DNA of 57,565 nucleotides from positions 1 through 57,565 of the forward strand of contig CANROW010000006.1 of the NCBI GenBank assembly GCA_947632345.1, read 5' to 3'. This document shows positions 7,852 through 55,945 of the stretch, piece by piece (within the stretch, counting starts at the first letter, position 1; each line of letters begins with the position of its first letter). The stretch is from an uncultured Bacilli bacterium. Its GTDB lineage: Bacteria; Bacillota_I; Bacilli_A; RF39; UBA660. A program made the translations under genes and the position numbers. The notes below the pieces were generated by a model. The model was not told where the DNA came from. It saw nothing but the letters and a program-made list of their open reading frames with translations, and did not search any database.

Positions 7852-8508
7852 ATGATTACTGAAAAGGATATAGGAGAATATGATAAATTAATTTATAGTA
7901 TTATTAATAAATATCGATTTTTAGGGGAAATAGATGATTTATATCAAGTAGGAATGATGGGACTATTAAAGGCCTATGAAAATTATAATAGTAACTTTGA
8001 TACTAAATTTTCTACTTATGCCCATACTTACATAATGGGAGAAGTTTTAAAATATATACGTGATAATAAAGCGATTCGTATTAATCGCGATATGGTTCGC
8101 TTAAATTCTAAAATTGAAAAAGCTAAAGAGATTCTAAATCAAAAGCTCATGCGCGAAGTCACTATCAGTGAAGTTGCCTCTTTTTTAGATGTTGATGAGA
8201 GTTTAATTGGCGAAGCTATTAACTCAGCTAACTTTGTCAAGAGTCTTGATTATGAGTTAAATGAAGAGGGAAAAGAACTAAATTTATATGATAGTGTCAA
8301 ATATGAAGAAAAGGGATATGATAGTGATATTATGGATTTAAGAGATAGCCTCGATAGTTTAACCGATGACGAACGACGTTTAATTGAATATCGCTATTTT
8401 GATGATCGAACTCAAAGTGATGTATCAGAAGAATTAGGAATGAGTCAAGTTCAAGTATCGCGAAGCGAAGCTAAGATTTTACAAAAGTTAAAGAATAAAC
8501 TCAGTTAA
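7852..8508 (+). CDS. sigF: Sporulation RNA polymerase sigma factor, SigF/SigG type
   Basis: A 218-residue sigma-70 factor with regions 2, 3 and 4. Region 2 has DLYQVGMMGLLKA and STYAHTYIMGEVLKYIRD, the pattern of SigF/SigG/SigB. Region 4 contains YFDDRTQSDVSEELGMSQ followed by VQVSR, the signature of forespore sigma factors. It lies directly upstream of spoVAC-spoVAD-spoVAE, as sigF lies upstream of the spoVA operon in Bacillus, which favours SigF over SigG. No spoIIAA or spoIIAB (anti-anti-sigma and anti-sigma) is found beside it. The SD TAGGAGGAAT immediately precedes the ATG. Confidence 0.82.
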   Translation: MITEKDIGEYDKLIYSIINKYRFLGEIDDLYQVGMMGLLKAYENYNSNFDTKFSTYAHTYIMGEVLKYIRDNKAIRINRDMVRLNSKIEKAKEILNQKLMREVTISEVASFLDVDESLIGEAINSANFVKSLDYELNEEGKELNLYDSVKYEEKGYDSDIMDLRDSLDSLTDDERRLIEYRYFDDRTQSDVSEELGMSQVQVSRSEAKILQKLKNKLS

Positions 8509-8531
8509 AAAATTTGTGTATGAAAACAAGA

Positions 8532-8563
8532 AAATCATCCATTATATTAGTGGGTGATTTTTT
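8532..8563 (+). promoter_or_regulatory. Terminator-like hairpin overlapping the spoVAC ribosome-binding site
   Basis: A 10-bp stem (8532-8541 with 8551-8560, one T-G wobble), 9-nt loop and a six-T run ending two bases before the spoVAC ATG. The 3' arm contains the spoVAC Shine-Dalgarno GGGTG. It could end transcription after the sigma gene or mask the SD. Confidence 0.6.
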
Positions 8564-8564
8564 A

Positions 8565-9008
8565 ATGGATAAAATAAGTTATAAAAAAATAGTAGACCGC
8601 CATAAACCAACAGAAACACGTCTTATAAACGCTATTGTGGCCTTTGTTGTCGGTGGTCTTGTGGGAGTCATAGGTCAATTATTAATTGATTTCTATACGT
8701 CGTGGTTGCACATAACGACTCAAGATGCCACATCATTTATGATTGTTACGCTTGTCTTTATTTCTTGCTTGTTTACCGCTTTGGGCTTTTTTGATAAATG
8801 GGTTACCTTTGCAAAGTGTGGTTTAATTATTCCGATTACAGGATTTGCTCATTCAATGATGAGTAGTGGTATGGAATATAAACACGAAGGACCAATTTAT
8901 GGAGTTGGAGCTAATTTGTTTAAATTAGCCGGTTCTGTTATTTTGTATGGTATTGTTGCGGCTTGGTTCTTCGGAATGATTCGATATTATTTTTTAGGAG
9001 GTGTCTAG
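8565..9008 (+). CDS. spoVAC: Stage V sporulation protein AC
   Basis: A 147-residue integral membrane protein of the SpoVAC/SpoVAEB family. Motifs such as FVVGGLVGVIGQ, TALGFFDKW and CGLIIPITGFAHSM, with four hydrophobic segments, are diagnostic. In Bacillus SpoVAC is a mechanosensitive channel component of the inner spore membrane that takes part in dipicolinic acid (DPA) uptake and release. ATG 8565 is chosen because GGGTG lies at the right distance; the frame extends upstream to TTG 8514 without an SD. It forms a tight operon with spoVAD (stop and start adjacent) and spoVAE. Confidence 0.92.
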   Translation: MDKISYKKIVDRHKPTETRLINAIVAFVVGGLVGVIGQLLIDFYTSWLHITTQDATSFMIVTLVFISCLFTALGFFDKWVTFAKCGLIIPITGFAHSMMSSGMEYKHEGPIYGVGANLFKLAGSVILYGIVAAWFFGMIRYYFLGGV

Positions 9009-10004
9009 ATGACTTTTACATATGACGATGTCTATATTAATTACTATGCAACAGTCGGTGGACCATATGAAAAAGATGGACCACTAGGACCAAGTCTTGA
9101 TAAGGTTTACACTAATCTATACGCTGATGAAAAAACTTGGGAACAAGCCGAAGTTAAAATGCTTTCTGACAGCATTGATCTAGTGCTTAGAAATAGTAAG
9201 AAAGACAGTCAAGACGTTGATTTATTGATCAGTGGCGATCTTTTAAATCAAGTAACAGCTTCTAGTTATGCTGCTTTAAAATTTAATATTCCTTTCTTTG
9301 GTATCTATGGTGCTTGTTCAAGTAGTGTTGAGGGAATTATTTTAATGAGCTCATTAATCGATGGTAAAAAGATTAAGAATGGTATTGTCTCAGTTTCTTC
9401 CCATAATATGTCGAGTGAAAAGCAATTTAGAAATCCGACGGAATATGGTGCGCCTAAACCAAAGACCGCCACATTTACTTCAACGGGTGGCGCTAGTGTG
9501 TTCTTGAGTAATCAAAAGAGTAAGATAAGAGTTGAATCTTCAACTATTGGTAAAGTTGTCGATATGGATCAAACTGATCCGTTTAATATGGGAGCTGTTA
9601 TGGCGGCTGCCGCAGGTGATACAATATATCGGCACTTAAAAGATATGAAACGAACAGTAAATGATTATGACTTAATTTTAACAGGGGATTTAGGTGTATA
9701 TGGACGAGAGATATTAATTGATTATATGCATCAAGAGTACAATATTGATCTAGGAAAAAATTATGATGATAGTGGTACGATGTTGTACAATTTAGAGAAA
9801 CAAGAAGAGGTTATGGCGGGAGCGAGTGGACCATTATGTATTGCGATGGTCAGTTACTCAAGTATCCTACCACTACTTGAAAAAGGTAAATTTCAACGTG
9901 TTTTATTAGTGGCAACAGGAGCCTTATTTTCACCAACATTTGTTTATCAACATAAACCTATTTACTCAATTAGTCACGCAGTCAGTTTGGAGGCGATTAA
10001 ATGA
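9009..10004 (+). CDS. spoVAD: Stage V sporulation protein AD (DPA-binding)
   Basis: A 331-residue protein with the thiolase-like fold of SpoVAD. Visible family blocks are YATVGGPYEKDGPLG near the N-terminus, GIYGACSSSVEG around the former thiolase active site, and LTGDLGVYGREILIDY. SpoVAD binds dipicolinic acid and is required for its import into the forespore. It sits between spoVAC and spoVAE with no spacer, overlapping spoVAE by 4 bp (ATGA). The start ATG is preceded by TTAGGAGGTGT. Slightly shorter than the roughly 338 residues of B. subtilis SpoVAD, so it is essentially full length. Confidence 0.93.
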   Translation: MTFTYDDVYINYYATVGGPYEKDGPLGPSLDKVYTNLYADEKTWEQAEVKMLSDSIDLVLRNSKKDSQDVDLLISGDLLNQVTASSYAALKFNIPFFGIYGACSSSVEGIILMSSLIDGKKIKNGIVSVSSHNMSSEKQFRNPTEYGAPKPKTATFTSTGGASVFLSNQKSKIRVESSTIGKVVDMDQTDPFNMGAVMAAAAGDTIYRHLKDMKRTVNDYDLILTGDLGVYGREILIDYMHQEYNIDLGKNYDDSGTMLYNLEKQEEVMAGASGPLCIAMVSYSSILPLLEKGKFQRVLLVATGALFSPTFVYQHKPIYSISHAVSLEAIK

Positions 10005-10351
10005 TTTATTTAAACTCATTCCTATTTGCTGGTTTTGTCTGTTTAATAGGACAAATTATCTTAGACAATACTAAACTTACTGCTGGTCATATCACAAGTC
10101 TTTTCGTTGTAATTGGTGCGGCCTTAGACAGTTTTAGTTTTTATGATAAAATCATCACCTATGTCGGTGGTGGAGCCTTAGTACCAATAACATCATTTGG
10201 CCATTCACTAATTCATGGGGCATTAGCTAAAGCTGAAGAAATGGGCTTTATTGGTCTAATGATGGGAATGTTTGATTTGACGGCATCGGGAATTACCGCC
10301 GCCATATTATTTACATTCTTATTACTATTAGTATTTAAACCAAGAGATTAA
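10001..10351 (+). CDS. spoVAE: Stage V sporulation protein AE (SpoVAEB)
   Basis: A 116-residue membrane protein homologous to SpoVAC, with GFVCLIGQIILDNTKLT, LDSFSFYDKI and GGGALVPITSFGHSL motifs. It is the SpoVAEB part of the DPA channel complex. Translation is coupled to spoVAD through the ATGA overlap at 10001-10004. With SpoVAC and SpoVAD it completes the minimal spoVAC-D-E set found widely in spore-formers; spoVAA, AB, AEA and AF are absent here. A terminator follows at 10354-10393. Confidence 0.92.
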   Translation: MIYLNSFLFAGFVCLIGQIILDNTKLTAGHITSLFVVIGAALDSFSFYDKIITYVGGGALVPITSFGHSLIHGALAKAEEMGFIGLMMGMFDLTASGITAAILFTFLLLLVFKPRD

Positions 10352-10353
10352 AA

Positions 10354-10396
10354 AAAGAAATGAGTTTGAATTTTTTTCAAATCAGTTTCTTTTTTA
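10354..10396 (+). terminator. Bidirectional terminator between spoVAE and the convergent gene
   Basis: Imperfect inverted repeat AAAGAAA...TTTGAA / TTCAAA...TTTCTTT with T-rich flank on the + strand and A-rich flank for the opposing gene. Confidence 0.6.
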
Positions 10397-11584
10397 TTGA
10401 TTTTGATTAGGTTGTACAACTTGATCAAGTGGTGTTGAGACAGCTACTTGTTGTGGTGTAGCATTAACCACTGTTGGTGGTTTATTTTGAGCAACTTGTT
10501 CAAGTGGTGTTGCACCTTCAACTGGCTGTTGAACTACTTCACTTGTAGGTTGTTGCACCATATTATTATTTACTGGTTGGCCATTATTATCTTGAACTGG
10601 TTGTTCGCTTGGAGTTTGTCCACTAATTGTTGGAATTATAGCTTCTGGTAAATCATCTTGTTTAAAGTTGGGATTGATAACTTTTTCCTCTATTTTAACC
10701 TCCTCAACCGGCTGAATTTCACTAACGGTCGGTTTAGGAGTAGGAATTGGAACAGGTGGTGGACTAGGCTTTTCTGGTTCTTTGTAAGTAGTTGTTTGCG
10801 TATAAGGTACTTTGGTTGGTTGGGCATCAATTTGATATTTACCCGTTGAATTATAAATTATATTGTCAATTTCTTTGGTTTCATCATAATCTTTATCAAT
10901 ATAATATATGCGCAGCATTGGATTTAAAAGAAAAGCACCAATGGATGAATATAGTAAAATACTTTTGATTTTCTCTGCTGTGGATACCTTTTTGTTATTG
11001 CTTTCGTCCTCAATTTCATCTCGATTATCAAAAATATCGCTTGGTTCATCAGTCTTCTCATTTTCTTTTGAAGAAGTATCAACTGTGAACAGACTCTTAG
11101 GTAAGAAACTATTTCCAAAAAGATATATAACCGTTGTAACCGCAATTAAAATAGCTGTAAAATATTGAAAATGACGATGACTTTTATTAGCTTGTGGTAT
11201 TTCAAATACTAAAACCATAACTGTTAAGAAAATAGTAATACCTATTAAAATTCTAATTAATAATAAGAGATTTCCTTCAATTTTTAGTTTAAATATCAAA
11301 ATGACAGCTAATATCAATAGAATGATTAATCCTGCTATTACAGCTAAATATCCAACAGCAGTCGTTTTACGATTGGCAATGACATTTGCTGATCTTGAAA
11401 AAACAAAGCCCATTGCGGCAATACAAATAGCTATTATAAAGGTATACAAGCCAGTTGGATCACTTCCATTAGTTGTCAGTTCAACTGTCTTATCAAGAAC
11501 ACCAATACTATATAGGCACAATACAACCAATGATATTATGGTCATACCCATTATTGCTAAATAAATTTTTTTGACAGTTTCCAT
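10394..11584 (-). CDS. Unknown multi-pass membrane protein with Pro/Gln-rich tail
   Basis: A 396-residue protein of unknown function. Residues 1-165 hold about five hydrophobic helices. A charged linker (about 170-205, DEPSD...DEIEDES) and one more short hydrophobic segment (about 210-230) follow. The last ~130 residues are low-complexity: a proline run (PSPPPVPIPTPKPT) and repeated Val/Gln/Pro blocks such as TPLEQVAQ and TPLDQVVQ. Such tails often cross the cell wall or bind partners. It is convergent with spoVAE and divergent from scpA; the ATG is preceded by GGAAGTGATTAG. Confidence 0.6.
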   Translation of the reverse strand: METVKKIYLAIMGMTIISLVVLCLYSIGVLDKTVELTTNGSDPTGLYTFIIAICIAAMGFVFSRSANVIANRKTTAVGYLAVIAGLIILLILAVILIFKLKIEGNLLLLIRILIGITIFLTVMVLVFEIPQANKSHRHFQYFTAILIAVTTVIYLFGNSFLPKSLFTVDTSSKENEKTDEPSDIFDNRDEIEDESNNKKVSTAEKIKSILLYSSIGAFLLNPMLRIYYIDKDYDETKEIDNIIYNSTGKYQIDAQPTKVPYTQTTTYKEPEKPSPPPVPIPTPKPTVSEIQPVEEVKIEEKVINPNFKQDDLPEAIIPTISGQTPSEQPVQDNNGQPVNNNMVQQPTSEVVQQPVEGATPLEQVAQNKPPTVVNATPQQVAVSTPLDQVVQPNQNQ

Positions 11585-11694
11585 CTAATCACTTCCTATT
11601 ATATATATCGTATCACAAAAATATTTTTTTTGATATTTAAATTTATTAAAATAACTATAAATATGTTATTATATTAATATGTGGGTGTGATGTT

Positions 11695-12417
11695 ATGGAG
11701 TATGCATTGAACATAGATAGTTTTCAAGGGCCTTTAGATTTATTACTTCATTTGATTAAAGAATCTAAAATGGATATCTTTGATTTAAAGATTGAAGAGA
11801 TTACGAAACAATATCTAGACTATATTGAAAAGATGGATGAATTAAATTTAAATATTGCTAGTAGTTATTTAGTAATGTCTGCTGAGTTATTAGAAATAAA
11901 ATCCAAAATGCTTCTTCCTAAACATAATGATGATGATAATGAAGAGGAAGCTGATCCACGTGAAGAATTAGTCAATCGATTAATTGAGTATCAAAGATAT
12001 AAAGATTTGACTAGTACTTTTAAAGATTTAGAATATGAAAGAAAAAAGATTTTTACTAAAGTTCCAGAAAATATAAGAGAATATGTTGAAGATGATAAAG
12101 TTATTAATGGTGGAGAAGTTACATTGGATGATTTGATGATGGCTTTTCAAAAATTTCTTGACCGTCAAAAGTTTAATCAACCACTTAATACGAAAGTTAC
12201 ATCTAAAGAATTGACCGTAGAACATCGCCGTCGCAGCATAAGAAAAATTTTATCAATTAAAAAAAGGGTCAACTTTATGGAACTTTTTGATATTATGAAT
12301 AGAGAATATGTCGTTGTAACTTTTTTAGCTATTTTAGAAATGGCTAAAGAGAATGAATTGATTATACGACAAGAAAACAATTTTGATGACATAATATGTG
12401 AGGTGGCTCATGAATAG
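11695..12417 (+). CDS. scpA: Segregation and condensation protein A (kleisin)
   Basis: A 240-residue ScpA. The N-terminal SMC-binding block YALNIDSFQGPLDLLLHLI is diagnostic, followed by the conserved SSYLVMSAELLEIKSKMLLP stretch, an acidic linker and a C-terminal winged-helix domain. ScpA bridges the SMC head domains and, with ScpB, forms the bacterial condensin that organises and segregates chromosomes. The 3' end overlaps scpB by 8 bp. The start ATG at 11695 follows GGGTGTG. Confidence 0.93.
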   Translation: MEYALNIDSFQGPLDLLLHLIKESKMDIFDLKIEEITKQYLDYIEKMDELNLNIASSYLVMSAELLEIKSKMLLPKHNDDDNEEEADPREELVNRLIEYQRYKDLTSTFKDLEYERKKIFTKVPENIREYVEDDKVINGGEVTLDDLMMAFQKFLDRQKFNQPLNTKVTSKELTVEHRRRSIRKILSIKKRVNFMELFDIMNREYVVVTFLAILEMAKENELIIRQENNFDDIICEVAHE

Positions 12418-23728: not shown

Positions 23729-24736
23729 TTACATAAATTTCTTCTTTTTACTTACTAATATTATAGCAATAGCACCGAGAGCAATAACAGTAGAAATGAT
23801 ATATGGATTAGTTCTACCTGTATGTGGATTATCTGGTAAGCAAGCTTTTTCATAGGCATCTTTATCAACTATTGTTCCTTTATCATCATAATATTTACCA
23901 TCTTTAATCATACATTTTGGTAAACATACTTTTCGGTAGTCTTCTTCTTCTATTTCATTACCATCTTTATCATAGTATTTATCATCTCTTACGCCACAAC
24001 TAGGATTACAAGATTTCTTGTAAGTAGGTTCATCTACAGCTTTACCATCTTTATCGTAATACTTACCATTTTTTACTTCACATTTTGGATTAGGTGTTGT
24101 TGGTGTAGGACAAGCCTTCTCATAAGTTCCTTTGTCTACAACTTTTCCAGTGTTATCATAATATTTACCACCATATTCTTTACAAACAGGGCAGACATCT
24201 GGATCACCAGTTACTTCATAAACTCTTCCTGACATATATTCATAAGTAACAGCTCCAAAAACTTTTATAGATGGGTTTTTAACATCAACTGTTAAGATGT
24301 AATATTTTTTACCACAAAATGTTTCTAATGTAATTGGCTTTTCTTCATAATCGTCATAACACCAATATTCTCCATCAGCAACTAATTTTTCGAATTTGGT
24401 AACATCTTCATCTCCACCTTCTAGAGTACCAGCTTGTCTTTTAGCGTCGATTGCATCTTGAACTTTTTTAATTTCATCATATTTCTCTTTGGTCAATTCA
24501 GTTAATTTGTAATATATTTCAGAATTGTCTTCTGTAACGCCTATTGATGTTGACCTCTCTGTCAAAACAATATGGTTTTCACCAATCTTTAGGGTATCAG
24601 GCATTAAAACGTATCCCTCATAGTCATAAGTCATCTTCCCACTAGATGGCGCAGCATTAACTATATTAACTCCTACAAATATACTCGTTATTCCTATTAC
24701 TAACAATGTTAGTATTTTTAAATTTTTCTTTATCAT
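23729..24736 (-). CDS. Cell-wall-anchored surface protein with Cys-paired tandem repeats and NPHTG sorting signal
   Basis: A 335-residue secreted protein. It has a signal peptide (KKNLKILTLLVIGI...NAAPSS), an N-terminal domain of about 170 residues, then four imperfect repeats of roughly 37-45 residues. Each repeat has the pattern C...GKYYD..G..VD...Y.K.C, so each brings a potential disulphide pair. The C-terminus is a sortase signal: NPHTG, a hydrophobic stretch and KKKK. NPxTx is the motif used by class B sortases, and a class B sortase is encoded divergently next door. ATG 24736 follows AAAGGAGGATAGAA. Ligand and role unknown; adhesion or heme/metal capture are possibilities. Confidence 0.8.
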   Translation of the reverse strand: MIKKNLKILTLLVIGITSIFVGVNIVNAAPSSGKMTYDYEGYVLMPDTLKIGENHIVLTERSTSIGVTEDNSEIYYKLTELTKEKYDEIKKVQDAIDAKRQAGTLEGGDEDVTKFEKLVADGEYWCYDDYEEKPITLETFCGKKYYILTVDVKNPSIKVFGAVTYEYMSGRVYEVTGDPDVCPVCKEYGGKYYDNTGKVVDKGTYEKACPTPTTPNPKCEVKNGKYYDKDGKAVDEPTYKKSCNPSCGVRDDKYYDKDGNEIEEEDYRKVCLPKCMIKDGKYYDDKGTIVDKDAYEKACLPDNPHTGRTNPYIISTVIALGAIAIILVSKKKKFM

Positions 24737-24921
24737 TTCTATCCTCCTTTTACAATAAAATATTAACATATTTATTTTTGTCTTTCAATAATATGAATTT
24801 ATTTGTTTTTATTATGTGTAAAATGTTGACATTTATTCTAGTGTACATATTTGTCATTAATGTTGTCTATAATATTCATGTGTGTTAATATATTATTAGA
24901 ATAAATTGAGGAGCATTAAAG

Positions 24922-26562
24922 ATGTATAAGATTTTAGTTGAAGTTGACAAAAAAAATTTAGCATTTTCTCTATACAATTTACGTAGTAAAGTAGAAAATT
25001 TAAATGACACCAATATAATTAATACAGAAAAAATGGTTTTTAGCGATGCTTATATTAAAAATAACATTGATCTAATTAAATCTTTTTTTAATTTAATTGT
25101 CTTAAAAAATAATATTGAGACTGTCGATATATCTGTTAATGCTTTGTGCCCCATCGTCTTTTTTATAATAGGAGACAATTCTAAAATAAAAAATGTAAAC
25201 TTATTAGAGGACAAAGTAATCAGTTATACAGTATTTGAACTATTATTATCTAGTAAATACATTGAAAATGTCAATTGTTATGCAATGCCATCTTTCATGT
25301 TCGATAAATTAGATATCGATAAAAATATGCGAGTTACTTCGCGATGTGAAGTATTATTTGTAAGTAACTTTATGGATATGAATAGTTTTAACAATTATTC
25401 TGATGTATATTATAAAAAGAACATAGTAATTGATTGCCAATTTAAAGAAAGAGATAAAGAAGATATAGAGTCTTTTTTCAGATTTAACAATAATTTAAAA
25501 ATTATGAATTTATATCATACTAGTGAAGATAGTATTGATTACCTCTTAGACATCGTCAAAAATAATAACAAGAAAAATATTAAAATCATTCTTAATCAAG
25601 ATAAAAATGATAGTAGTATTATTAAATTATGTAATAAAGTCGTTGAAAAAAATAAAAAGCTCATAAAAAATAATAATCTAAAAATTAAGGTAAATTATAT
25701 AAAAGAGTATCGTGATAAAAATATGCTAAAGCAAGTTAATCTCAATTTCTTTAGAATTATTTTAATCCTCTTTATAGTTTTAGCTTTTCTTGTCTGTATC
25801 ATCTTTTTTGTCAAATATAGAGAAGATACCAATGATATCAATGATGAACTTGACGATATTGCTAGTATAATTGATTTAAATGACATAGATAATTATATAG
25901 CTGAAGAAGAAAAGATAGAAGAACAGGAGCAACAAGAAGAAGTGGATAGTTCACAAACCAAACCTCCTGTCAATGATGCCAAACCTGATCCATATGCTAA
26001 TACTTTTGATCAAATTTTTTCTGAATTGTTGAAGATTAATGATGAGACAGTAGGTTGGTTAAAAGTTAATAATACCAATATCAATTATCCAGTAACCAAA
26101 CATAGTGATAATGATTATTATTTGAATAATAGTTATTATAAACAACAAAATACACATGGTTGGGTATTTATGGATTATCGCAATAGTATAGATAAATTAG
26201 ATAAAAATACGATTATTTATGGTCATCGCAATAATAAGGGCTTAATGTTTGGCAGTTTAAAAAATGTTTTGGATAAGAATTGGTATACTGATAAAAATAA
26301 TCAAAAAATTACGTTTAATACATTGAATGGTGATATGCAGTGGCAGATTTTTTCAATATATACCTTAAAAAATACAAACGATTATTTAGCAAATCATTTT
26401 GATAATGATGAGAGTTATAAAACATTTATAGAGATGATTAAGAAAAGGAGTATCTATAATTTTGGCATTGATGTTGGAATTGATGATAATATTTTGACCC
26501 TTTCAACATGCTATAATAATGCTGAATATCGTTTAGTTGTCCATGCTAAATTGATTAAGTAA
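24922..26562 (+). CDS. srtB: Class B sortase with an extra N-terminal cytoplasmic domain
   Basis: A 546-residue sortase. Residues 1-270 are a soluble domain I do not recognise; one membrane helix (about 275-297) and an acidic linker rich in Glu/Asp follow. The last ~200 residues are a class B sortase with catalytic His435 (YGHR), Cys530 (TLSTC) and Arg537 (EYRLVVHAKL). It cleaves sorting signals and links proteins to peptidoglycan. The surface protein with NPHTG, divergent from it, is the obvious substrate. Ordinary SrtB is about 250 residues, so the N-terminal half is exceptional: it faces the cytoplasm and could sense or tether. Start ATG follows GAGGAGC. Confidence 0.85.
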   Translation: MYKILVEVDKKNLAFSLYNLRSKVENLNDTNIINTEKMVFSDAYIKNNIDLIKSFFNLIVLKNNIETVDISVNALCPIVFFIIGDNSKIKNVNLLEDKVISYTVFELLLSSKYIENVNCYAMPSFMFDKLDIDKNMRVTSRCEVLFVSNFMDMNSFNNYSDVYYKKNIVIDCQFKERDKEDIESFFRFNNNLKIMNLYHTSEDSIDYLLDIVKNNNKKNIKIILNQDKNDSSIIKLCNKVVEKNKKLIKNNNLKIKVNYIKEYRDKNMLKQVNLNFFRIILILFIVLAFLVCIIFFVKYREDTNDINDELDDIASIIDLNDIDNYIAEEEKIEEQEQQEEVDSSQTKPPVNDAKPDPYANTFDQIFSELLKINDETVGWLKVNNTNINYPVTKHSDNDYYLNNSYYKQQNTHGWVFMDYRNSIDKLDKNTIIYGHRNNKGLMFGSLKNVLDKNWYTDKNNQKITFNTLNGDMQWQIFSIYTLKNTNDYLANHFDNDESYKTFIEMIKKRSIYNFGIDVGIDDNILTLSTCYNNAEYRLVVHAKLIK

Positions 26563-43512: not shown

Positions 43513-43542
43513 TGCTATTATTTAAATATAGAGTTGGTGCTT

Positions 43543-44808: not shown

Positions 44809-47800
44809 ATGAGATTGTGTTTATTGGATGTTAATAAAATTTATCACTTTGATTTGCCAGTTAAGATTAATGGATCATTTTTATTTTCATATAAGGATCC
44901 TAAAACTAAAATAGAAAATATTTTAAATGTTGAAGAAATTAATAACAAATGGAAATTAAAGAGTAATGGTAATATTAATATCATGGTTAATAACCAAATA
45001 ATGGCAGAAATAGAATTAAATGATTTCAATTGTATAACTTTAAAGATTGGGAGTTCTGGTGAACAAAAATATTTGTTTTGTTTGCCATCAAATGATAAAA
45101 ACGTTACTAAATATAATGTTGAAAATATTGCTTCAATTACAATTGGTTCTGATCCTAGTTGTAATATTATCTATTCTAATCCATTGATGGCACCTAATCA
45201 TTTGAGTTTAGTTCTAGATAATGGTGAGTATTATGCCGTTCCTATGAATGACAATAATATTTATTCCTATTTAAATAACGAGAGAATTATTCGAAGAGAA
45301 AAATTACATGTTGGGGATGTCATTTTTATTAATGGGTTAAAAATTGTATGGATGCGCAAATTTATTGTTGTCAATAATCCAAATAATGGTGTGAGAACCA
45401 ATGCTATTCAAATCTATGCTGATTCACAAATAATGGATAATACTAAGTATGCTCCTGTTTCAGAAGAAGAAAGTTGTGTTGAATTATATAATGAGGATGA
45501 TTACTTTAGTCATACGCCTAGACTAAGAACTGTTTTTGAACAAGAAATGGTTCAAATTGATCAACCACCACCAAATCAAAATCCTAATGAGGATCTACCA
45601 TTTTTGTTATCAATTGGTACAGGCTTAGTCATGGCCGCTTCATCATTTTTTATGATTTATCAAAATGCTTATAATATTTATACGGGGGCTACAACCTTAG
45701 CAATGGCTCTTCCAATGTTGATGCTTTCAATTTTAATGTTGTTTAGTTCATTGGTGTTACCTAGGTTAACTACTAGATATCAAAAGAAAAAAAGGGCCCA
45801 AAGAGAAAAATTGCGTCAAGATAAATTCGGACAATATGTCAAAGAAAAAGAAGAGTATATTCAAAAGAAAATTAAAGAACAGGCCCAAATTATGACAGAA
45901 AACAATTTACCTTTAGAACAATGTCGTGATTTGGTCCTATCAAATAGTCGTAATGTTTGGAATCGTGAATTAAAAGATGATGATTTCCTAAGTATTCGTT
46001 TGGGAATAGGAACTTATCCTTCTTCTATCAGCATCAATGCTCCAGTAGAACATTTTTCCTTGGATGATGATAATTTATTAAGTCTTGTCTATGGATTGCC
46101 AGATAAATATAAAATTATTGAAAACGTTCCAGTTGCTATTTCCTTTTCAAAAAATAATATTATTTCTTTCTTATTTGATTGTAGTTTTAAAGATAGTTTT
46201 GTAGATGGATTAATACTACAAATAGCAACTTATCATAGTGCCTTGGATTTAAAAATAGTTGTTTTTTCAAGCGAAGAAAATGCTGGACATTGGGATTATT
46301 TGAAAAAAATGCCTCATGTGTGGAGTAGTGATAGATTAATAAGGTTTTTTGCAACTAATACGGAAGAGGCAAAAGTTGTTACTTCATATCTAGAAAAAGA
46401 ATTCTTAACAAGACAAGCTAGTTTTAAACCAAGTAATAGTGAGGAAAATGGTAATGTTCAACAAGTGCGTGACGTCGATCAGAATTTGCCATATACTAAA
46501 TATAAAGATTATTATTTAATTTTGACAGATGATTTTAGTCTATTGCGGGGATCTAATTTTGTAACAGAATTTTTTAAAGAAAAGACTAATTTAGGTTTTT
46601 CATTAGTGATTTTTGATAATTCAATGCGTAATTTACCACAAGAATGTGAAACTTTTGTTGTCATTGATGAAAAAGAATGTGGAATTTTTAATAAAGAATT
46701 AAAATCATCTTCTTTGATTAAGTTTAAAGCCGATTATGATCCAACCATTGATATGCAACAAATAGCTACAAAATTGTCAAATATTCCGATTCAGAGTCAG
46801 GAAGTAGCAACACAGTTACCAACTAGTATGTCATTCTTGGAAATGTATAATGTTGGTAAAATTGAACAATTGAATGTTTTGAATAGATGGAGTAGTAATA
46901 ATCCAACCGCCAGTTTAGCTGCACCTATTGGTGTTCATACTAATGGGGATTTGTTCAAACTAGATTTACATGAAAAATTTGATGGACCACATGGATTAAT
47001 TGCTGGTTCAACCGGAAGTGGTAAATCAGAATTCATCATCACTTATGTATTGTCAATGGCTTTGAACTATCATCCATATGAAGTTCAATTCGTCTTAATT
47101 GACTATAAAGGTGGTGGACTTACTGGTGCTTTTGAAAATCGTGAGACGGGAGTTCATCTACCACATTTAGCGGGTACGATAACCAATCTTGATACTAGCG
47201 AGATGAATAGAACGCTAGTTTCTATTGAGAGTGAGTTGAAAAGACGACAAGCTAAATTTAATGAAGTTCGTGATTCTATTGGTGAAAGTACGATGGATAT
47301 CTATAAATATCAAAGATTATATCGTGAAGGAGTTATTAAAGACCCTATTTCTCACTTGTTCATCATTTCCGATGAGTTTGCTGAGTTAAAGAGCCAACAA
47401 CCTGATTTTATGGCGCAGTTGATATCTACTTCACGTATTGGACGTAGCTTAGGAGTGCATTTGATATTAGCTACGCAAAAGCCTAGTGGAGTTGTCAATG
47501 ATCAAATTTGGTCTAACTCTAAATTTAAGGTTTGTTTAAAAGTGCAAAGTCGTCAAGATAGTATGGAAATGTTAAAAAGACCAGAAGCTGCAAGCATCAA
47601 AGAAGCTGGACGTTTCTATCTCCAAGTCGGTTATGATGAGTATTTCGATATTGGACAATCTGGATGGTGTGGAGCTAAATATGTGCCAACGGAAAGAATT
47701 ATTAAGAAGTATGATGATTCAGTCAATTTTGTCAACAATTATGGAGCTATCATTAAAACAGTCAATGATTTGATCAAGAAAGAAGACAATCAAGATGAAC

Positions 47801-49446
47801 GAGGTGACCAATTAACTAATATTGTTCGTTACTTGTACGAAATAGCTCAAAAAGAGAATATTCAAACTCAAAAAATGTGGTTGGATTCGCTTCCTGAATT
47901 TATTTATCTAGAAGATTTGAAAAAACGATATGATATTAAGCCTGAGAGTTATAATTTTAAAACTATTGTTGGTGAATATGATGCGCCAAAACGTCAACAA
48001 CAAGGAGCTTTTATTCTTGATTTGACCGATAATAATACATTGATATATGGAATGCCTGGTAGTGGTAAAGAAAATTTAATTTCAACAATCTTATATTCAA
48101 TGATGATTAATCATCATCCTAAGGAAGTAACTACTTATATTGCTGATTTTGGTGCTGAAACTCTAACGGTTTTCAATGGTATGCCTCATGTTGGAGATAC
48201 ATTTGTGACGAGCGATGGAGAAAAATTAGAAGGTTTGTTCAAATTACTTGATCGCGAGTATGGGCGAAGAAAGAAAAAGTTTATAGATTTTTCGGGAAGC
48301 TATGTTGAATACAACAAAAACAATGATGAAAAAGAACCATTGATCATAGTTGTATTGAATGCTTTTGAAAGTTTCCAAGAGTCTTATTCAAAAGCTGCAG
48401 ATGCATTTGATACTATGTTTAGAGATGGTGCCAAATATGGTATTACTTTTATTGTTTCGACTTCTGTTGCCAATTCGATTAGAAACAGAACTACTCAATA
48501 TTTTGCTAATAAAATTGTTTTACGGATGCCTAATGATGGCGACTATCGTGATTTAATCGGTTCACCACGGGGAATGGTTCCTGCTAATATGTTTGGCCGT
48601 GGAATTGCCCTTGTTGGTGAAGAGCCTTTAGAAGTTCAAACGGCATATATAACACAAAAAGATAATATTAATAGTACAATTCGAAATACGGGAAAATATT
48701 TAGCGGATTCTTATAAATATAAAGCACCAAAACTTCCTGTTTTACCACAGATGTGCAGTGTTGATGAAATATTATTTGAGATGAATGGATTGACGACGAT
48801 TCCGATAGGAATTGAAAGAAATACCTTAGAAGTATATGTCTATGACTTTACCATCAATAAAATTAATTTAATCATATCTAATTATATGAGCAGTCACATC
48901 TATTTCATCTATGCTTTGATTAGAGAATTCTTATTAAATCAAAATGTTAAAGTTAAAGTAATCGATGCTCTGAGTATCTATAAAGGTAATTATGGTGGAG
49001 TAGATGTCTTCACTGGAAATTTTGATAATGTCATCAGTCAAATTTATAATGACTTACAGTCTGAAAAGAATTCACCAGATACGACAATGTACATAATGAT
49101 TGGTATCAGCGTCTTAAAAGATAAATTGTCACAAGATTATAAGGCTGTTTATGAAAACATCTTCGCCAATGTCAACAGTTATGAAAAAAGTCTTTTCATC
49201 TTTGCCGATGATTATGCATCTATTAAAAAGATTCAAGTGGATGAATGGTATCGAAATAATGTGGATAATAGTTATGGAATTTGGCTTGGTGAAGGAGCTG
49301 GTGATCAAATGGCTATCAGCATTGCGACTCTTTCATTCGATGATAAAAAAATTGCTTTCCCATTCATTGGATACCCAATTTACAAAGGTAACCACATGAT
49401 TATAAAATACGTCATAGATGGTATGGAGGTAGATGATGAAAAATAA
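44809..49446 (+). CDS. essC: Type VII secretion ATPase EssC
   Basis: A 1545-residue EssC, the motor and membrane core of T7SSb. N-terminal two FHA-like domains (second with IGSDPSCNI near 112 and NHLSL near 130), two membrane helices (about 265-325), then three FtsK/SpoIIIE-type ATPase domains. D1 has Walker A GSTGSGKSE (near 733), the LIDYKGGGL strand and IISDEFAEL. D2 has GMPGSGKEN, where Glu replaces the usual Thr/Ser after Lys. D3 has lost its Walker A. D1 is therefore probably the active ATPase. The start ATG follows GTAGGTGTTGAG. The yukD start overlaps its end. Confidence 0.93.
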   Translation: MRLCLLDVNKIYHFDLPVKINGSFLFSYKDPKTKIENILNVEEINNKWKLKSNGNINIMVNNQIMAEIELNDFNCITLKIGSSGEQKYLFCLPSNDKNVTKYNVENIASITIGSDPSCNIIYSNPLMAPNHLSLVLDNGEYYAVPMNDNNIYSYLNNERIIRREKLHVGDVIFINGLKIVWMRKFIVVNNPNNGVRTNAIQIYADSQIMDNTKYAPVSEEESCVELYNEDDYFSHTPRLRTVFEQEMVQIDQPPPNQNPNEDLPFLLSIGTGLVMAASSFFMIYQNAYNIYTGATTLAMALPMLMLSILMLFSSLVLPRLTTRYQKKKRAQREKLRQDKFGQYVKEKEEYIQKKIKEQAQIMTENNLPLEQCRDLVLSNSRNVWNRELKDDDFLSIRLGIGTYPSSISINAPVEHFSLDDDNLLSLVYGLPDKYKIIENVPVAISFSKNNIISFLFDCSFKDSFVDGLILQIATYHSALDLKIVVFSSEENAGHWDYLKKMPHVWSSDRLIRFFATNTEEAKVVTSYLEKEFLTRQASFKPSNSEENGNVQQVRDVDQNLPYTKYKDYYLILTDDFSLLRGSNFVTEFFKEKTNLGFSLVIFDNSMRNLPQECETFVVIDEKECGIFNKELKSSSLIKFKADYDPTIDMQQIATKLSNIPIQSQEVATQLPTSMSFLEMYNVGKIEQLNVLNRWSSNNPTASLAAPIGVHTNGDLFKLDLHEKFDGPHGLIAGSTGSGKSEFIITYVLSMALNYHPYEVQFVLIDYKGGGLTGAFENRETGVHLPHLAGTITNLDTSEMNRTLVSIESELKRRQAKFNEVRDSIGESTMDIYKYQRLYREGVIKDPISHLFIISDEFAELKSQQPDFMAQLISTSRIGRSLGVHLILATQKPSGVVNDQIWSNSKFKVCLKVQSRQDSMEMLKRPEAASIKEAGRFYLQVGYDEYFDIGQSGWCGAKYVPTERIIKKYDDSVNFVNNYGAIIKTVNDLIKKEDNQDERGDQLTNIVRYLYEIAQKENIQTQKMWLDSLPEFIYLEDLKKRYDIKPESYNFKTIVGEYDAPKRQQQGAFILDLTDNNTLIYGMPGSGKENLISTILYSMMINHHPKEVTTYIADFGAETLTVFNGMPHVGDTFVTSDGEKLEGLFKLLDREYGRRKKKFIDFSGSYVEYNKNNDEKEPLIIVVLNAFESFQESYSKAADAFDTMFRDGAKYGITFIVSTSVANSIRNRTTQYFANKIVLRMPNDGDYRDLIGSPRGMVPANMFGRGIALVGEEPLEVQTAYITQKDNINSTIRNTGKYLADSYKYKAPKLPVLPQMCSVDEILFEMNGLTTIPIGIERNTLEVYVYDFTINKINLIISNYMSSHIYFIYALIREFLLNQNVKVKVIDALSIYKGNYGGVDVFTGNFDNVISQIYNDLQSEKNSPDTTMYIMIGISVLKDKLSQDYKAVYENIFANVNSYEKSLFIFADDYASIKKIQVDEWYRNNVDNSYGIWLGEGAGDQMAISIATLSFDDKKIAFPFIGYPIYKGNHMIIKYVIDGMEVDDEK

Positions 49447-49690
49447 AGTTTTAGTTGAAGTATTAGTTCCTAATATTGAACAAAAATATGATGTTTATTT
49501 GCCAGTCAATAAGAGAATTGGAAATATTATAATTCTATTATGCCGGGCTATAAATGAGTTTACTAATGGAATGTACTTAGGAGATTCATCAGTCTCCCTT
49601 TACAACAATCAAACGGGTAACAAGTATAATGTTAACGAACTTTTGAGAAAGACGGATATTAGGAATGGCACTGTTCTAGTTTTAATGTAA
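49436..49690 (+). CDS. esaB: EsaB/YukD ubiquitin-like T7SS protein
   Basis: An 84-residue protein of the YukD/EsaB type: a ubiquitin-like beta-grasp with VLVEVLVPNIEQKYDVYLPVN and IIILLCRAINEF, ending in NGTVLVLM. Required for T7SSb secretion, with an unclear mechanism. It overlaps the essC stop by 11 bp; ATG 49436 (six bases after GGAGGT) is preferred over 49433. The order essC-esaB is reversed with respect to B. subtilis (yukE-yukD-yukC-yukB). Confidence 0.85.
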   Translation: MKNKVLVEVLVPNIEQKYDVYLPVNKRIGNIIILLCRAINEFTNGMYLGDSSVSLYNNQTGNKYNVNELLRKTDIRNGTVLVLM

Positions 49691-49758
49691 AAAAGTGTTA
49701 AATCAATTGAAAAAAAAGAAAAAACATATTATGGTTATTACAATAGAGGTGGGTATTA

Positions 49759-50061
49759 ATGATTAGCATAGATGATTTGTATGCACAAAAAAGAAAATAC
49801 GTCAATTTGAGAGAAAAAGTTACGAATACACGGAATGATTTAAAATCAGCTATTGATAAAATCAGTGGTGTTTCTGATAAAATCATCAATGGTTATAGTG
49901 TCGATGACGTAAGTGCTGATAATGGGCGGTTAAAAAAAATTGAAAATGAAATACGCGATATGCATGATAACTTATCAAATGTTATTTTACCAAATATTAA
50001 TTCCAAGATAAAAAAGCTTGAAAGTGATATTGAGATTGCGGAAAGTTTGGAAAATGGATAG
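49759..50061 (+). CDS. T7SS-associated small helical protein (YwqH/DUF5082-like)
   Basis: A 100-residue, almost entirely helical protein with heptad-like Lys/Asp/Ile spacing (KSAIDKISGVSDKI, LKKIENEIRDMHDNL). No W-x-G motif. Size and position resemble the DUF5082/YwqH helpers that accompany WXG or LXG substrates. AGAGGTGGGTATTA precedes the ATG. The family assignment is tentative. Confidence 0.6.
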   Translation: MISIDDLYAQKRKYVNLREKVTNTRNDLKSAIDKISGVSDKIINGYSVDDVSADNGRLKKIENEIRDMHDNLSNVILPNINSKIKKLESDIEIAESLENG

Positions 50062-50071
50062 GTGATAGGAA

Positions 50072-50359
50072 ATGACTATGATTAAAGTTGACACGATTAA
50101 GTTGCGCGAATGTGGTAGAGATTTATCTATTGCTAGCGATTCTTTAAAAAATAATGTCAATAATTTATTTGCAAGGATTGAAGGCGTACCAACGCGGACC
50201 AAAGAGTGGGTAGGTGAAGCATCTACTCAATATTCCAATATGGTTTTGCGCGAAAAAAATGATTATGACAGATATGTGAATAATATGATTGTCTTTTCTA
50301 ATAGCTTGATTAATTATGCTGATGAGTTAGAACGCGCTGTCAAGAAAACGATGTTGTAG
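50072..50359 (+). CDS. WXG100-like protein
   Basis: A 95-residue helical hairpin protein with W46-V-G48 (KEWVGEAS) at the predicted turn and the typical A-x3-Y after it, so a WXG100 (EsxA-like) protein. These are secreted as dimers by EssC or act as partners of larger substrates. Cotranscribed with its neighbours, 10 bp after the preceding gene, with AGGTGATAGGAA before the ATG. Confidence 0.75.
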   Translation: MTMIKVDTIKLRECGRDLSIASDSLKNNVNNLFARIEGVPTRTKEWVGEASTQYSNMVLREKNDYDRYVNNMIVFSNSLINYADELERAVKKTML

Positions 50360-50367
50360 GAGGATAT

Positions 50368-50676
50368 ATGGCAAGAATTAAGTATGATTCTAATTATTTA
50401 GATTTAAAAGTAAAACCTTATTTAAGTAATGCTATCGATTATTTACAAAATGCTAATAGGAGTGCTTCATCAATGTTTATTCCTTATGATTTTAAATATC
50501 GTGACGATTTGAAAAATCTTTCTCAAAACATAAAGAATATCACCTCCAAAGTGCAAGATTTTAATGAATGGATAAAAAACTGTAACAAGATTTTTTCCGA
50601 AGTAGAAATGCAACATTCAAGAAATATTAGTAGAATTGACAATTTTAGTATAAAACAACATAATAGATTGACATAA
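50368..50676 (+). CDS. T7SS-associated small protein
   Basis: A 102-residue helical protein without W-x-G but with a single Trp (FNEWIKNC). It lies 8 bp after the WXG100-like gene with TAGGAGGA before the ATG, so it is probably an accessory or partner of that protein. Not recognised. Confidence 0.58.
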   Translation: MARIKYDSNYLDLKVKPYLSNAIDYLQNANRSASSMFIPYDFKYRDDLKNLSQNIKNITSKVQDFNEWIKNCNKIFSEVEMQHSRNISRIDNFSIKQHNRLT

Positions 50677-50700
50677 CAATGTCAAAAAATGTAAAAGATG

Positions 50701-50729
50701 TAGACGGTTAAAAAAAATTAATATATAAT
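50701..50729 (+). promoter_or_regulatory. Internal promoter for the second half of the T7SS locus
   Basis: TAGACG (50701-50706), 17-bp spacer, TATAAT (50724-50729), 32 bp before the 50761 start. It may allow separate expression of the substrate genes. Confidence 0.6.
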
Positions 50730-50760
50730 GAATTTATAAAGCTAGGAGAGTAGTGATAAT

Positions 50761-51090
50761 ATGAGTTCGCCTGACGAATTTTATAAGACATCAGCTTTTA
50801 TTGACGAAGCACACATAAAATCTTTATGTATAGAGATTCAAGGATATGTTGAAAACATTAAGAAATCTTTAGAACGCGTAAGTGATTTAGTTGATGATTC
50901 ACAGTCATTTTATCAAGATGATACGAGAAATACTTTTGTTAGTAAGAGTAATGATTTTCGAATGTGTCATAATATCATATTGAACAATATGATGTCATAT
51001 ATAGATGATTACAATTTTGTCTTATCAAAATATCATGGTAACGATAGTATGATGACTACGAATTTTAGTTTTGAAAATATCAATAAATAA
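50761..51090 (+). CDS. WXG100-related small protein lacking Trp
   Basis: A 109-residue helical protein. Helix, break (SQSFYQDDTRNTF) and helix correspond to WXG100 geometry, with FYQDD in place of W-x-G. First gene behind the internal promoter. GGAGAG upstream of ATG. Not assignable to a named family. Confidence 0.58.
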   Translation: MSSPDEFYKTSAFIDEAHIKSLCIEIQGYVENIKKSLERVSDLVDDSQSFYQDDTRNTFVSKSNDFRMCHNIILNNMMSYIDDYNFVLSKYHGNDSMMTTNFSFENINK

Positions 51091-51108
51091 TAGGAGGAAA
51101 AGGAAAAA

Positions 51109-51408
51109 ATGTCAAATTTGGATTATAGTCACGGATATAGTGGAAGTGGGATTGAACAATTAATTAGTGATGTCAATTCAATTGTTATGTCAGGAGCAGG
51201 TAAAAAGGCTATTGATAACTTGAACATAATTACGGATGCTTGTGATCAATATTGGGATGGAGAAGCTAAAGAAAATTTCAAGAAAAATTTAAAAAAAGAT
51301 GCAGAACTTTTTAAAAATAATTTACAAGAATTGGAAACAGCTTTTGAAACAGAAATTCGTAATGCTGGTGAAAGCTTTAGACAATTTGATAAGAATTTGA
51401 TTGATTAG
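51109..51408 (+). CDS. WXG100-family protein
   Basis: A 99-residue WXG100 protein: W49-D-G51 in QYWDGEAKENFKKNL, flanked by two long helices. It matches EsxA/YukE size and layout and is the best candidate for the canonical secreted T7SS substrate here. TAGGAGGAAAAGG is a very strong ribosome-binding site, suggesting high expression. The next gene starts 12 bp later. Confidence 0.82.
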   Translation: MSNLDYSHGYSGSGIEQLISDVNSIVMSGAGKKAIDNLNIITDACDQYWDGEAKENFKKNLKKDAELFKNNLQELETAFETEIRNAGESFRQFDKNLID

Positions 51409-51420
51409 GAGGAAAAGAAA

Positions 51421-51981
51421 ATGGCAATTTCAGGAACAAGTGAAAAAATGGATTCAACATTGAGAAATAATTTAAATACTTCAATGTCTTCAGACAGTTA
51501 TGTAAGCGCGGTTGGTGGTCAATCTTATAATACAAAATATAATATCGCTGGTGCTATTTTTGGTGGAAATTTCGCTGACAATAGTGTTTCTGGCGCAGCC
51601 GGAATTAAGGAAAATTTTGCTACGGCACTTGATGAGGCAATTAATGATTATATCAAAGAATTGAACACAGAATTAGATAAGTTGGAAACAAACCCTAATA
51701 TTTTGCAAGCTTTTAAGGGTGAGCTTACAGTTTCAGCAATCCAAAAATTGATCAAAGCAGTAAAAAGTGAAGCTCAACTTTATACAAGTAGTTTAAGAGA
51801 AGCAGAACAAGCAATAATTGAACAAGTTGCACAACTTTATGAAAAGCAAAATGCAAGTGTTGCTGATTCTATGAATACTGACACTAACAATTTGGCTGGA
51901 AGCAATCAATCTCAAAGCTATGGTGGTGCTGGTGGCGGAGGTCGTCCTCCAGTAATGAAAGCATTTGATTCAAATGTGTAA
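51421..51981 (+). CDS. Putative T7SS substrate with Gly-rich tail
   Basis: A 186-residue Ser/Asn/Ala-rich protein without signal peptide or cysteine. The centre (about 60-145) is helical with Gln/Glu-rich coiled-coil character; the C-terminus is Gly-rich (GGAGGGGRPP). Its strong SD (TTAGGAGGAAAAG) and position directly after the WXG100 gene suggest an abundant secreted or surface partner. Not recognised. A strong terminator follows. Confidence 0.6.
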   Translation: MAISGTSEKMDSTLRNNLNTSMSSDSYVSAVGGQSYNTKYNIAGAIFGGNFADNSVSGAAGIKENFATALDEAINDYIKELNTELDKLETNPNILQAFKGELTVSAIQKLIKAVKSEAQLYTSSLREAEQAIIEQVAQLYEKQNASVADSMNTDTNNLAGSNQSQSYGGAGGGGRPPVMKAFDSNV

Positions 51982-52006
51982 GAATGGTTTTTAACCATTC
52001 TTTTTT
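51981..52006 (+). terminator. Terminator of the T7SS locus
   Basis: Perfect AGAATGGTT/AACCATTCT stem, TTT loop, six Ts. Confidence 0.85.
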
Positions 52007-54384: not shown

Positions 54385-55209
54385 ATGCGAACAAGATCTG
54401 AAAAATATCTTGAAGAGGATATATCAAATAAACCTAAAGTAAGGGCTAGTCGATCTGATAAAAATAAATATTTATATGATGCAGTAGATAAAGGAATTAG
54501 ATACGAAGCAATCGATGGCTTTGATAATTATAAAACAGATTTAGGCGATGAAAAAAAAGAGAGAAATCGTGACAATTATATGGAAAATCGCACTAATGAT
54601 AAACAAAATGAGGAAGATGCCGACAAAGTCTTTGATATAAATTCCGTTTTAGAAGAAGCTAAGAGGAGTCGTGAGATACCAACTGAGATTGAAAATAAGA
54701 GGAATCTCCAAAATGTTGAGTATAACATTCTTTCTGATTTAAATAAAAAATATATTTCTAAAAAAGAAAAAGAAGAACTTGAAAAAGAAGAAATTAAAGA
54801 ATTAATTGATACTATTACTTCTCGAAATTTACCAAAAGAAATTATGGAAAGAGTTAATGAGGAAGATGATAGTAAAGATTTAATGAGTGATTTGATGGCA
54901 ACTAATACGATGACAGCATTAGATAAAGTTGACTTAGAAGAGGAAATAGCTAAAGAGATACTTGCGGATCAACAAACTGAAAATGATGATGAGGATGAGA
55001 TTAAAAAAGAAGATGGTAGATTAGTAAATTCCTTTTATACTAGAAGTATGGACTTAACTGAACATGATTTTAGTATGAAAGATGAATTTGATGAAGATAA
55101 ACCGCACAATAAACTTTTAATTGTCTTGACAATATTAATTTTAATTGCGGTTGCGGCGGCTACTTTCTTCATATTGAATTATTTTGGTATATTTAAGATT
55201 GAAGGGTGA
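54385..55209 (+). CDS. Acidic protein with C-terminal membrane anchor
   Basis: A 274-residue protein of unknown function. Most of it (1-245) is highly charged, Glu/Asp/Lys-rich and probably coiled or disordered, and one helix near the C-terminus (about 247-267, LLIVLTILILIAVAAATFFI) would tether it to the membrane with the bulk inside. Start ATG after GGGAGGTGTTGAT. A terminator overlaps its stop. Confidence 0.6.
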   Translation: MRTRSEKYLEEDISNKPKVRASRSDKNKYLYDAVDKGIRYEAIDGFDNYKTDLGDEKKERNRDNYMENRTNDKQNEEDADKVFDINSVLEEAKRSREIPTEIENKRNLQNVEYNILSDLNKKYISKKEKEELEKEEIKELIDTITSRNLPKEIMERVNEEDDSKDLMSDLMATNTMTALDKVDLEEEIAKEILADQQTENDDEDEIKKEDGRLVNSFYTRSMDLTEHDFSMKDEFDEDKPHNKLLIVLTILILIAVAAATFFILNYFGIFKIEG

Positions 55210-55227
55210 TTTTAATCACTCTTTTTT
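55204..55227 (+). terminator. Terminator between the acidic protein and yunB
   Basis: GGGTGAT/ATCACTC-type stem with a four-base loop, then six Ts; it ends 14 bp before the yunB start. Confidence 0.65.
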
Positions 55228-55240
55228 CATATTATTTATT

Positions 55241-55945
55241 ATGTTTAAGAAAAAAATTTTTTTTATAGGAATGACCATTATTATTTCTATAATTATTTCA
55301 GTTCATTATTTTGGACGATTAGTTGATATGAAGATGGCTGATTATGTTACGGAAGAAGTTAATAAAGTATCAAAAATATTGATTAGGAAAATATTAAATA
55401 ATGATTTTATTGACCAGCTCGATGTCGATAATTTATTTGTGGTGGTCAGAAATGATAATGATGATAATCTTATTGAAATGATTGATTTAAATACTCCAAA
55501 AGTTAATAATATTTTAGGGAAAGTTAATGATGAAATATTATATTATTTTTCAGAATTTGATCATGGCAACGTCGAGTTGTTCAGTAAATATTCCAGTGTC
55601 TTTAATAACTATATGATTGGTAATAATAGTGGTACATATATAAATGTACCTTTAGGAATCGTTTTTTCTAATCCGATTCTTTTCGGTATAGGTCCAAATA
55701 TTCCAATTAAAATTTTATTGAGTGGACAAGTCGAGTCCAATATTATTACATCTATTAAACAATATGGTATCAATAATGCTTTATTAGAAGTGAAATTAGA
55801 GATTAAAGTTAGAGAAAAAATTATCTTTCCTTTTTCAAATAGATATGTTGATATTGGATTAGAAATACCATTAATAATTGAATTAATATCCGGAAAAGTT
55901 CCAGAAAACTATTTAAATACTCAAAATTCTGGTATAATAGAATAA
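55241..55945 (+). CDS. yunB: Sporulation protein YunB-like
   Basis: A 234-residue protein with an N-terminal membrane helix (about 5-24) and the YunB core: INVPLGIVFSNPILFGIGP, YGINNALLEVKLEIKV and the ending GKVPENYLN. YunB is a sigma-E-controlled protein needed for normal sporulation in B. subtilis. ATG 55241 is chosen because the upstream in-frame TTG 55184 would lie inside the preceding gene and its terminator; no clear Shine-Dalgarno precedes 55241. YutD follows, as in the yut-yun region of Bacillus. Confidence 0.8.
   Translation: MFKKKIFFIGMTIIISIIISVHYFGRLVDMKMADYVTEEVNKVSKILIRKILNNDFIDQLDVDNLFVVVRNDNDDNLIEMIDLNTPKVNNILGKVNDEILYYFSEFDHGNVELFSKYSSVFNNYMIGNNSGTYINVPLGIVFSNPILFGIGPNIPIKILLSGQVESNIITSIKQYGINNALLEVKLEIKVREKIIFPFSNRYVDIGLEIPLIIELISGKVPENYLNTQNSGIIE

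Follow-up and report, generated by a model that had tools for sequence, protein, structure and literature searches.

In the Bacillota systems that have been studied, those of Staphylococcus and Bacillus, EssA, EssB and EsaA are all required for type VII secretion, and we know of no settled account of how a protein crosses the membrane there. The locus described here, in which EssC and EsaB are accompanied by small proteins and by none of these three components in recognisable form, raises the question of what such a machine is made of. Found in an uncultured gut-type bacterium and in many of its relatives, it may reveal how little such an export machine needs. The answer that we favour, and regard as likely, is that the operon encodes a type VII-like exporter, a subtype of its own without EssA, EssB and EsaA, in which three of the small proteins (P1-P3) are resident and the other three (P4-P6) form a cargo cassette.

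Within the window (the whole stretch of DNA that was analysed, 57,565 nucleotides), the locus at 44809-51981 consists of essC, esaB and then six small ORFs, termed P1-P6, all on the forward strand (Table 1). The ORF listing agrees exactly with the initial annotation, which had described the EssC/EsaB overlap, the six small proteins after it and the two W-x-G proteins among them; W46 belongs to the ORF at 50072 and W49 to that at 51109. The start of esaB lies within the end of essC, with an overlap of 14 nt. Intergenic gaps measure 68 nt between esaB and P1, 84 nt between P3 and P4, and 78 nt between P6 and the D-Ala-D-Ala carboxypeptidase gene (PF00768) that comes next, while the gaps within each P triplet are only 8-18 nt. 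From this gap pattern and the hairpin at the P6 stop, the locus reads as one operon composed of two three-gene modules. As 2 hairpins with a T-run were found against a shuffle mean of 2.2, it is the position of the hairpin, not the number, that carries the argument; Rfam returned zero matches anywhere in the window. Gene order is kept in the related loci L041, L068 and L069 and rearranged in L043 and L060. The conserved order, the codon-position pattern of purifying selection in both EssC and EsaB (0.22/0.12/0.48 for the intact EssC frame) and the hairpin with its T-run ending the operon together argue that the layout is more than chance.

Table 1. Features of the type VII-like locus in the window.
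Feature	Position	Strand	Description	Profile match or remark
EssC	44809..49446	+	1545 aa	TIGR03928, PF01580, PF00498
EsaB	49433..49690	+	EsaB/YukD-like small protein	PF08817 E 0.014, below cut-off
P1	49759..50061	+	100 aa, Trp-free antiparallel hairpin of helices	Lap-like partner candidate
P2	50072..50359	+	95 aa, WXG100 protein, W46-V-G	PF06013 1.9e-4, below cut-off
P3	50368..50676	+	102 aa, candidate helical partner	homologues beside P1 and P2
P4	50761..51090	+	109 aa, opens the exchangeable triplet	homologues in relatives
P5	51109..51408	+	99 aa, WXG100-type, W49-D-G, probable cargo	PF06013 0.004, below cut-off
P6	51421..51981	+	186 aa, N-terminal extension and long helical hairpin	probable cargo partner
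Hairpin	51980-52002	+	intrinsic-terminator-like, 10 pairs and T-run	begins at the P6 stop

EssC is a membrane ATPase of the EssC/EccC type, scoring 926 bits against TIGR03928 (cut-off 778), with an N-terminal FHA region (PF00498, 2.3e-8), two transmembrane helices and three FtsK/SpoIIIE-type ATPase domains (PF01580). The Walker A (GSTGSGKSE) and Walker B (DEFAE) motifs of domain D1 are conserved in 45/45 aligned EssCs, and D3 is degenerate everywhere in the alignment. PADLOC matched only the shared ATPase domains of EssC, and a plasmid search returned distant EssC proteins only, at most 34% identical. The small protein encoded next is of the EsaB/YukD kind known from T7SSb; its own PF08817 match is weak, and its family lies near EssC in 36 of the 41 loci of the clade described below. 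Between the window and L068, amino acid identity amounts to 73% for EssC, 79% for EsaB and 39-52% for P1-P6, which would be the usual pattern for a machine versus its cargo and partners.

The possibility raised at the outset that the missing genes lie elsewhere does not hold for recognisable homologues. The family sample comprised 58 genomes, namely the own genome (1.19 Mb in 45 contigs, 78% complete) and 57 others, and EssC was found above cut-off in 26 of them (the own genome and 25 others). Profiles for EssB, EsaA and EssA gave no match above cut-off in the window, as the initial annotation had already noted, nor in the own genome or in any of the 57 other family genomes. In particular, EsaA had zero matches in the own genome (G000) and none above cut-off in the 58 genomes, and EssA was above cut-off in 0/58, bearing in mind that a small divergent EssA could escape the profile. 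The EssC, EssB, EsaA and EssA searches all detected the positive control, B. subtilis, and EssB was also detected in six other genomes of the class. In a class-wide sample of 296 genomes, EssC is present in 28, of which 9 lie outside the family and 19 inside; EssB accompanies it in 5 of the former and in none of the latter (Fisher p about 0.001, calculated by hand). A search for the remaining core genes elsewhere in the genome thus yielded nothing above cut-off, and many members of the lineage share this layout. Custom EssB, EsaA and EssA profiles made from control loci likewise gave no convincing match in the clade loci or in genome G013, which is nearly complete and in which the best match to the custom EssB profile is a PASTA kinase.

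Three genes were considered as missing components or hidden partners and set aside. The 195-aa ORF at 43534, one of two membrane or lipoprotein genes upstream of essC, gives a faint EssA-like match (TIGR03927 E 0.012), and, one marginal match aside, nothing in the other 57 genomes of the family resembles it convincingly. The other, a lipoprotein gene at 44164, is present in 19 of the 26 EssC genomes and in 24 of the 32 without EssC (43/58 in total). As the distribution of neither gene tracks EssC, they are not linked to it. A Ser/Thr kinase of 570-620 aa, which carries PASTA domains in G013, is encoded in most of the 58 genomes irrespective of EssC and is therefore a housekeeping protein.

The neighbourhoods of 41 EssC loci of the clade and 5 EssB-linked control loci were compared by clustering ORFs with BLAST and by profile search. 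In the clade loci, the families recurring near EssC are EsaB (36), WXG-type hairpin proteins (28) and DUF4176 proteins (9), and no membrane protein recurs near EssC in the 41 loci beyond the shared neighbourhoods of near relatives; the same pipeline recovered EssB in 5/5 and EsaA in 3/5 of the control T7SSb loci. In the EssC tree, all family EssCs together with that of L094 form one clade apart from the EssB-linked EssCs (SH-aLRT 100). Identity to the window EssC is 36-45% in the family and 56-74% for the closest loci, while EssB-linked EssCs are mostly 27-30% identical. Judged from sequence, this is a real, conserved and lineage-wide type VII variant, of which EssC and EsaB are the only recognisable machine parts and EssC the only membrane part among these.

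Several further observations concern individual loci of this clade. L094 belongs to a genome of another family of the class (G333) and has an EssC of the same clade without EssB, which was probably acquired by horizontal transfer. The genomes G057, G004, G007 and G050 each carry two divergent EssC genes, so that some family members own two such systems. Related proteins with no Pfam family above cut-off are encoded upstream of EssC in L060 (1448-3175) and L043 (13965-15416); a HELIHA zinc-protease-like motif is present in the former. L104 (G009), the basal locus of the clade, encodes upstream of EssC a second EsaB and a soluble Ser/Thr kinase (10941-12089) that looks intact and has its kinase motifs; this one locus suggests an ancestor with more parts, from which the simpler loci are derived.

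The six small proteins behave as two distinct sets. Homologues of P1, P2 and P3 occur together with EssC in L041, L043, L060, L068 and L069, and in L069 they are the sole small proteins, P4-P6 being absent. P2 and P5 provide the WXG100 proteins alongside EssC, with PF06013 matches below the curated cut-off in both cases. The W and G of P2 are conserved in L068 and L069, and P2 is the best candidate for an EsxA equivalent. An AlphaFold2 model of P1 (pLDDT 90.5) has helices at 4-45 and 50-99, and a fold search with it returned only generic hairpins, in which the WXG100 proteins EsxA and CFP-10 and Lap structures were mixed with many coiled coils of no relation; since this hairpin is common to unrelated coiled coils too, it is consistent with membership of the WXG100/Lap family rather than proof of it.

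The second set is exchangeable. P4 homologues are present in L041, in L043 and twice in L068, and there is none in L069. L068 carries the whole P4-P5-P6 triplet twice; its two copies share 98.7% identity over the P4 region and 77% over P5-P6, with CDQYWDGEAKE invariant in P5 of both; P5-P6 is also present twice in L041. At its length P6 departs from the rest, so that not all six proteins are about 100 aa. Its alignment places F98-K-G, an FxG, at the predicted hairpin turn where a WxG would be, and its model is poor (pLDDT 50, helices 66-90 and 101-161). In L060 (G043), a 547-aa protein encoded at 10262-11905, adjoining P1-P2-P3, joins a P5-type WXG N-terminal domain (P5 profile 6.9e-19) through a long Ser/Thr/Glu-rich linker to a C-terminal CHAP domain (PF05257 5.7e-10), and is a candidate type VII cargo acting on peptidoglycan. 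Most likely, the small proteins comprise an EsxA-like core and its partners, together with a cargo cassette that can be exchanged.

In the secretion mechanism that we infer, EssC, anchored by its two transmembrane helices, would form a hexamer that serves as ATP-driven motor and probably also as pore, and EsaB would dock on it. In the resident triplet, P2 would take the part of EsxA, with P1 and P3 as helical partners of the Lap kind. P5, with its WXG, and P6, with its FxG, would pair and exit the cell as a helical bundle, P4 serving as targeting partner, and larger cargo would be made by fusing a P5-type domain to an enzyme such as a peptidoglycan hydrolase. LXG cargo depends on a pair of small helical proteins, neither of which is itself secreted (Klein et al. 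2022, PMC9600955), and the sets found here resemble those LXG/Lap1/Lap2 sets in having one larger helical cargo with two small helical partners and a hairpin with an xxG turn, but P1-P6 match none of the DUF3130, DUF3958, DUF5082 or LXG profiles. By analogy, P1/P3 and P4 could have a Lap-like role for the cargo. The T7SSb of Staphylococcus aureus and Bacillus subtilis (Ess/Yuk) shares with the locus an FHA-bearing EssC, an EsaB/YukD-like protein, WXG100 proteins and helical partners, and the DUF4176 proteins of related loci add to the likeness; the locus differs from it by the absence of EssA, EssB and EsaA and by an EssC that falls in a separate clade.

A bolder claim is that, throughout this family of uncultured Bacilli, EssC with the soluble EsaB suffices on its own for type VII translocation across the cytoplasmic membrane. 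We put it forward tentatively and consider it somewhat doubtful; were it correct, EssA, EssB and EsaA would not belong to basic transport but would have been added to cross the cell wall or to reach past it. The earlier suggestion of a minimal machine is supported as an arrangement shared across the lineage, but a partner of a novel kind may exist elsewhere. Indeed, EssC might rely on envelope partners of its own, encoded at another place in the genome and unrelated in sequence to the known ones, much as each of the subtypes T7SSc-T7SSj has its own specific partners (PMC11217815), and the kinase and second EsaB beside EssC in basal G009 fit ancestors that may have had extra parts. This is nonetheless unlikely, as membrane proteins recur near EssC only through the neighbourhoods of near relatives, and G013 (94% complete), the one related genome read nearly whole for architecture matches, holds no protein matching EssB or EsaA by profile, its architecture matches being mostly known proteins (RecA, the PASTA kinase and a SecDF-like protein). 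The one EsaA-shaped unknown of G013, encoded at 12330-13406 of L187, has 358 aa, a signal peptide, about 200 aa outside, five transmembrane segments and no Pfam family; this multi-pass membrane protein, left unexplained, counts against the favoured reading.

The absence of EssA, EssB and EsaA is in itself not unprecedented, since eight subtypes without them, T7SSc-T7SSj, have been published, each with its own extra genes, including a kinase, a phosphatase, an FHA protein, an Ig-like protein, a beta-propeller and Tad genes (Garrett, Higginson and Palmer 2024, PMC11217815). The locus resembles them in combining EssC, EsaB and WXG proteins without those three components, and in placing small WXG-related partners beside candidate cargo. 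It could belong to one of them, most plausibly an FHA-bearing one (e, f or j) whose kinase or phosphatase partners were lost from the locus, and the FHA domain of EssC and the kinase in L104 would suit such an origin; we judge this decidedly improbable. T7SSc, T7SSg and T7SSh have an EssC without FHA domains (PMC11217815), unlike that of the window. T7SSd, T7SSe and T7SSj carry the membrane kinase TsxD and the Ig-like TsxI at the locus, whereas genes of this type are absent from the window locus and do not recur in relatives, the only kinase elsewhere being of the housekeeping type. T7SSf has the PPM phosphatase TsfF, the FHA protein TsfJ and the AAA+ protein TsfV at its locus, and a locus-level search found no counterparts here. 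Across the clustered clade loci, no kinase, phosphatase, DUF6382-FHA, Ig-like or Tad gene recurs, the kinase of L104 standing alone. We propose that the clade is a new type VII subtype, set apart from T7SSc-T7SSj by gene content.

The proposal that P1-P6 structurally replace EssA, EssB and EsaA has in its favour that they are the only other conserved genes and that P1-P2-P3 stay with EssC even where P4-P6 are missing. A transmembrane segment is predicted in 0/6 of them, however, which makes them poor candidates for that role. Their sequences also change far more quickly than those of EssC and EsaB, and close relatives may carry half of them in duplicate or not at all, so that replacement is very unlikely. 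Just as hard to sustain is the idea of a decaying remnant of an ordinary T7SSb: core genes are missing and D3 of EssC is degenerate, but D3 lacks Walker A in the EssB-linked control EssCs as well, and EssC, retained in 26 of the 58 family genomes and sometimes twice in a genome, has an intact frame with a purifying codon pattern and conserved D1 motifs. An ordinary T7SSb whose other genes were missed in an incomplete assembly is refuted for recognisable homologues despite the gaps in the own genome, because relatives that are 94-97% complete also lack EssA, EssB and EsaA, and EssB lies beside EssC in the T7SSb control loci, whereas here both flanks are assembled, for 44 kb upstream and 8 kb downstream.

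The family offers a natural test of which parts form the pore and which reach through the wall, as EssC is retained by nearly half of its sampled genomes, mostly in the company of EsaB and sometimes in two copies, while no third core membrane protein can be recognised in them. The locus also separates clearly into resident partners (P1-P3) and exchangeable cargo (P4-P6), and the WXG-CHAP fusion is a candidate for cargo that acts on the cell wall.

Other parts of the window bear on the envelope and life cycle of the organism. A protein with a sortase domain (PF04203), a long N-terminal part of no assigned family and a transmembrane segment is encoded at 24922-26562, and the protein of the adjoining gene (23729-24769) ends in a sorting-signal-like NPHTG followed by a transmembrane segment and a KKKK tail. 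Sporulation genes are present as well, namely a sigma factor and SpoVA-like set at 7852-10351, judged from the sequence, and YunB (PF09560) at 55184-55945, which makes sporulation likely in this organism even with a genome of about 1.2 Mb.
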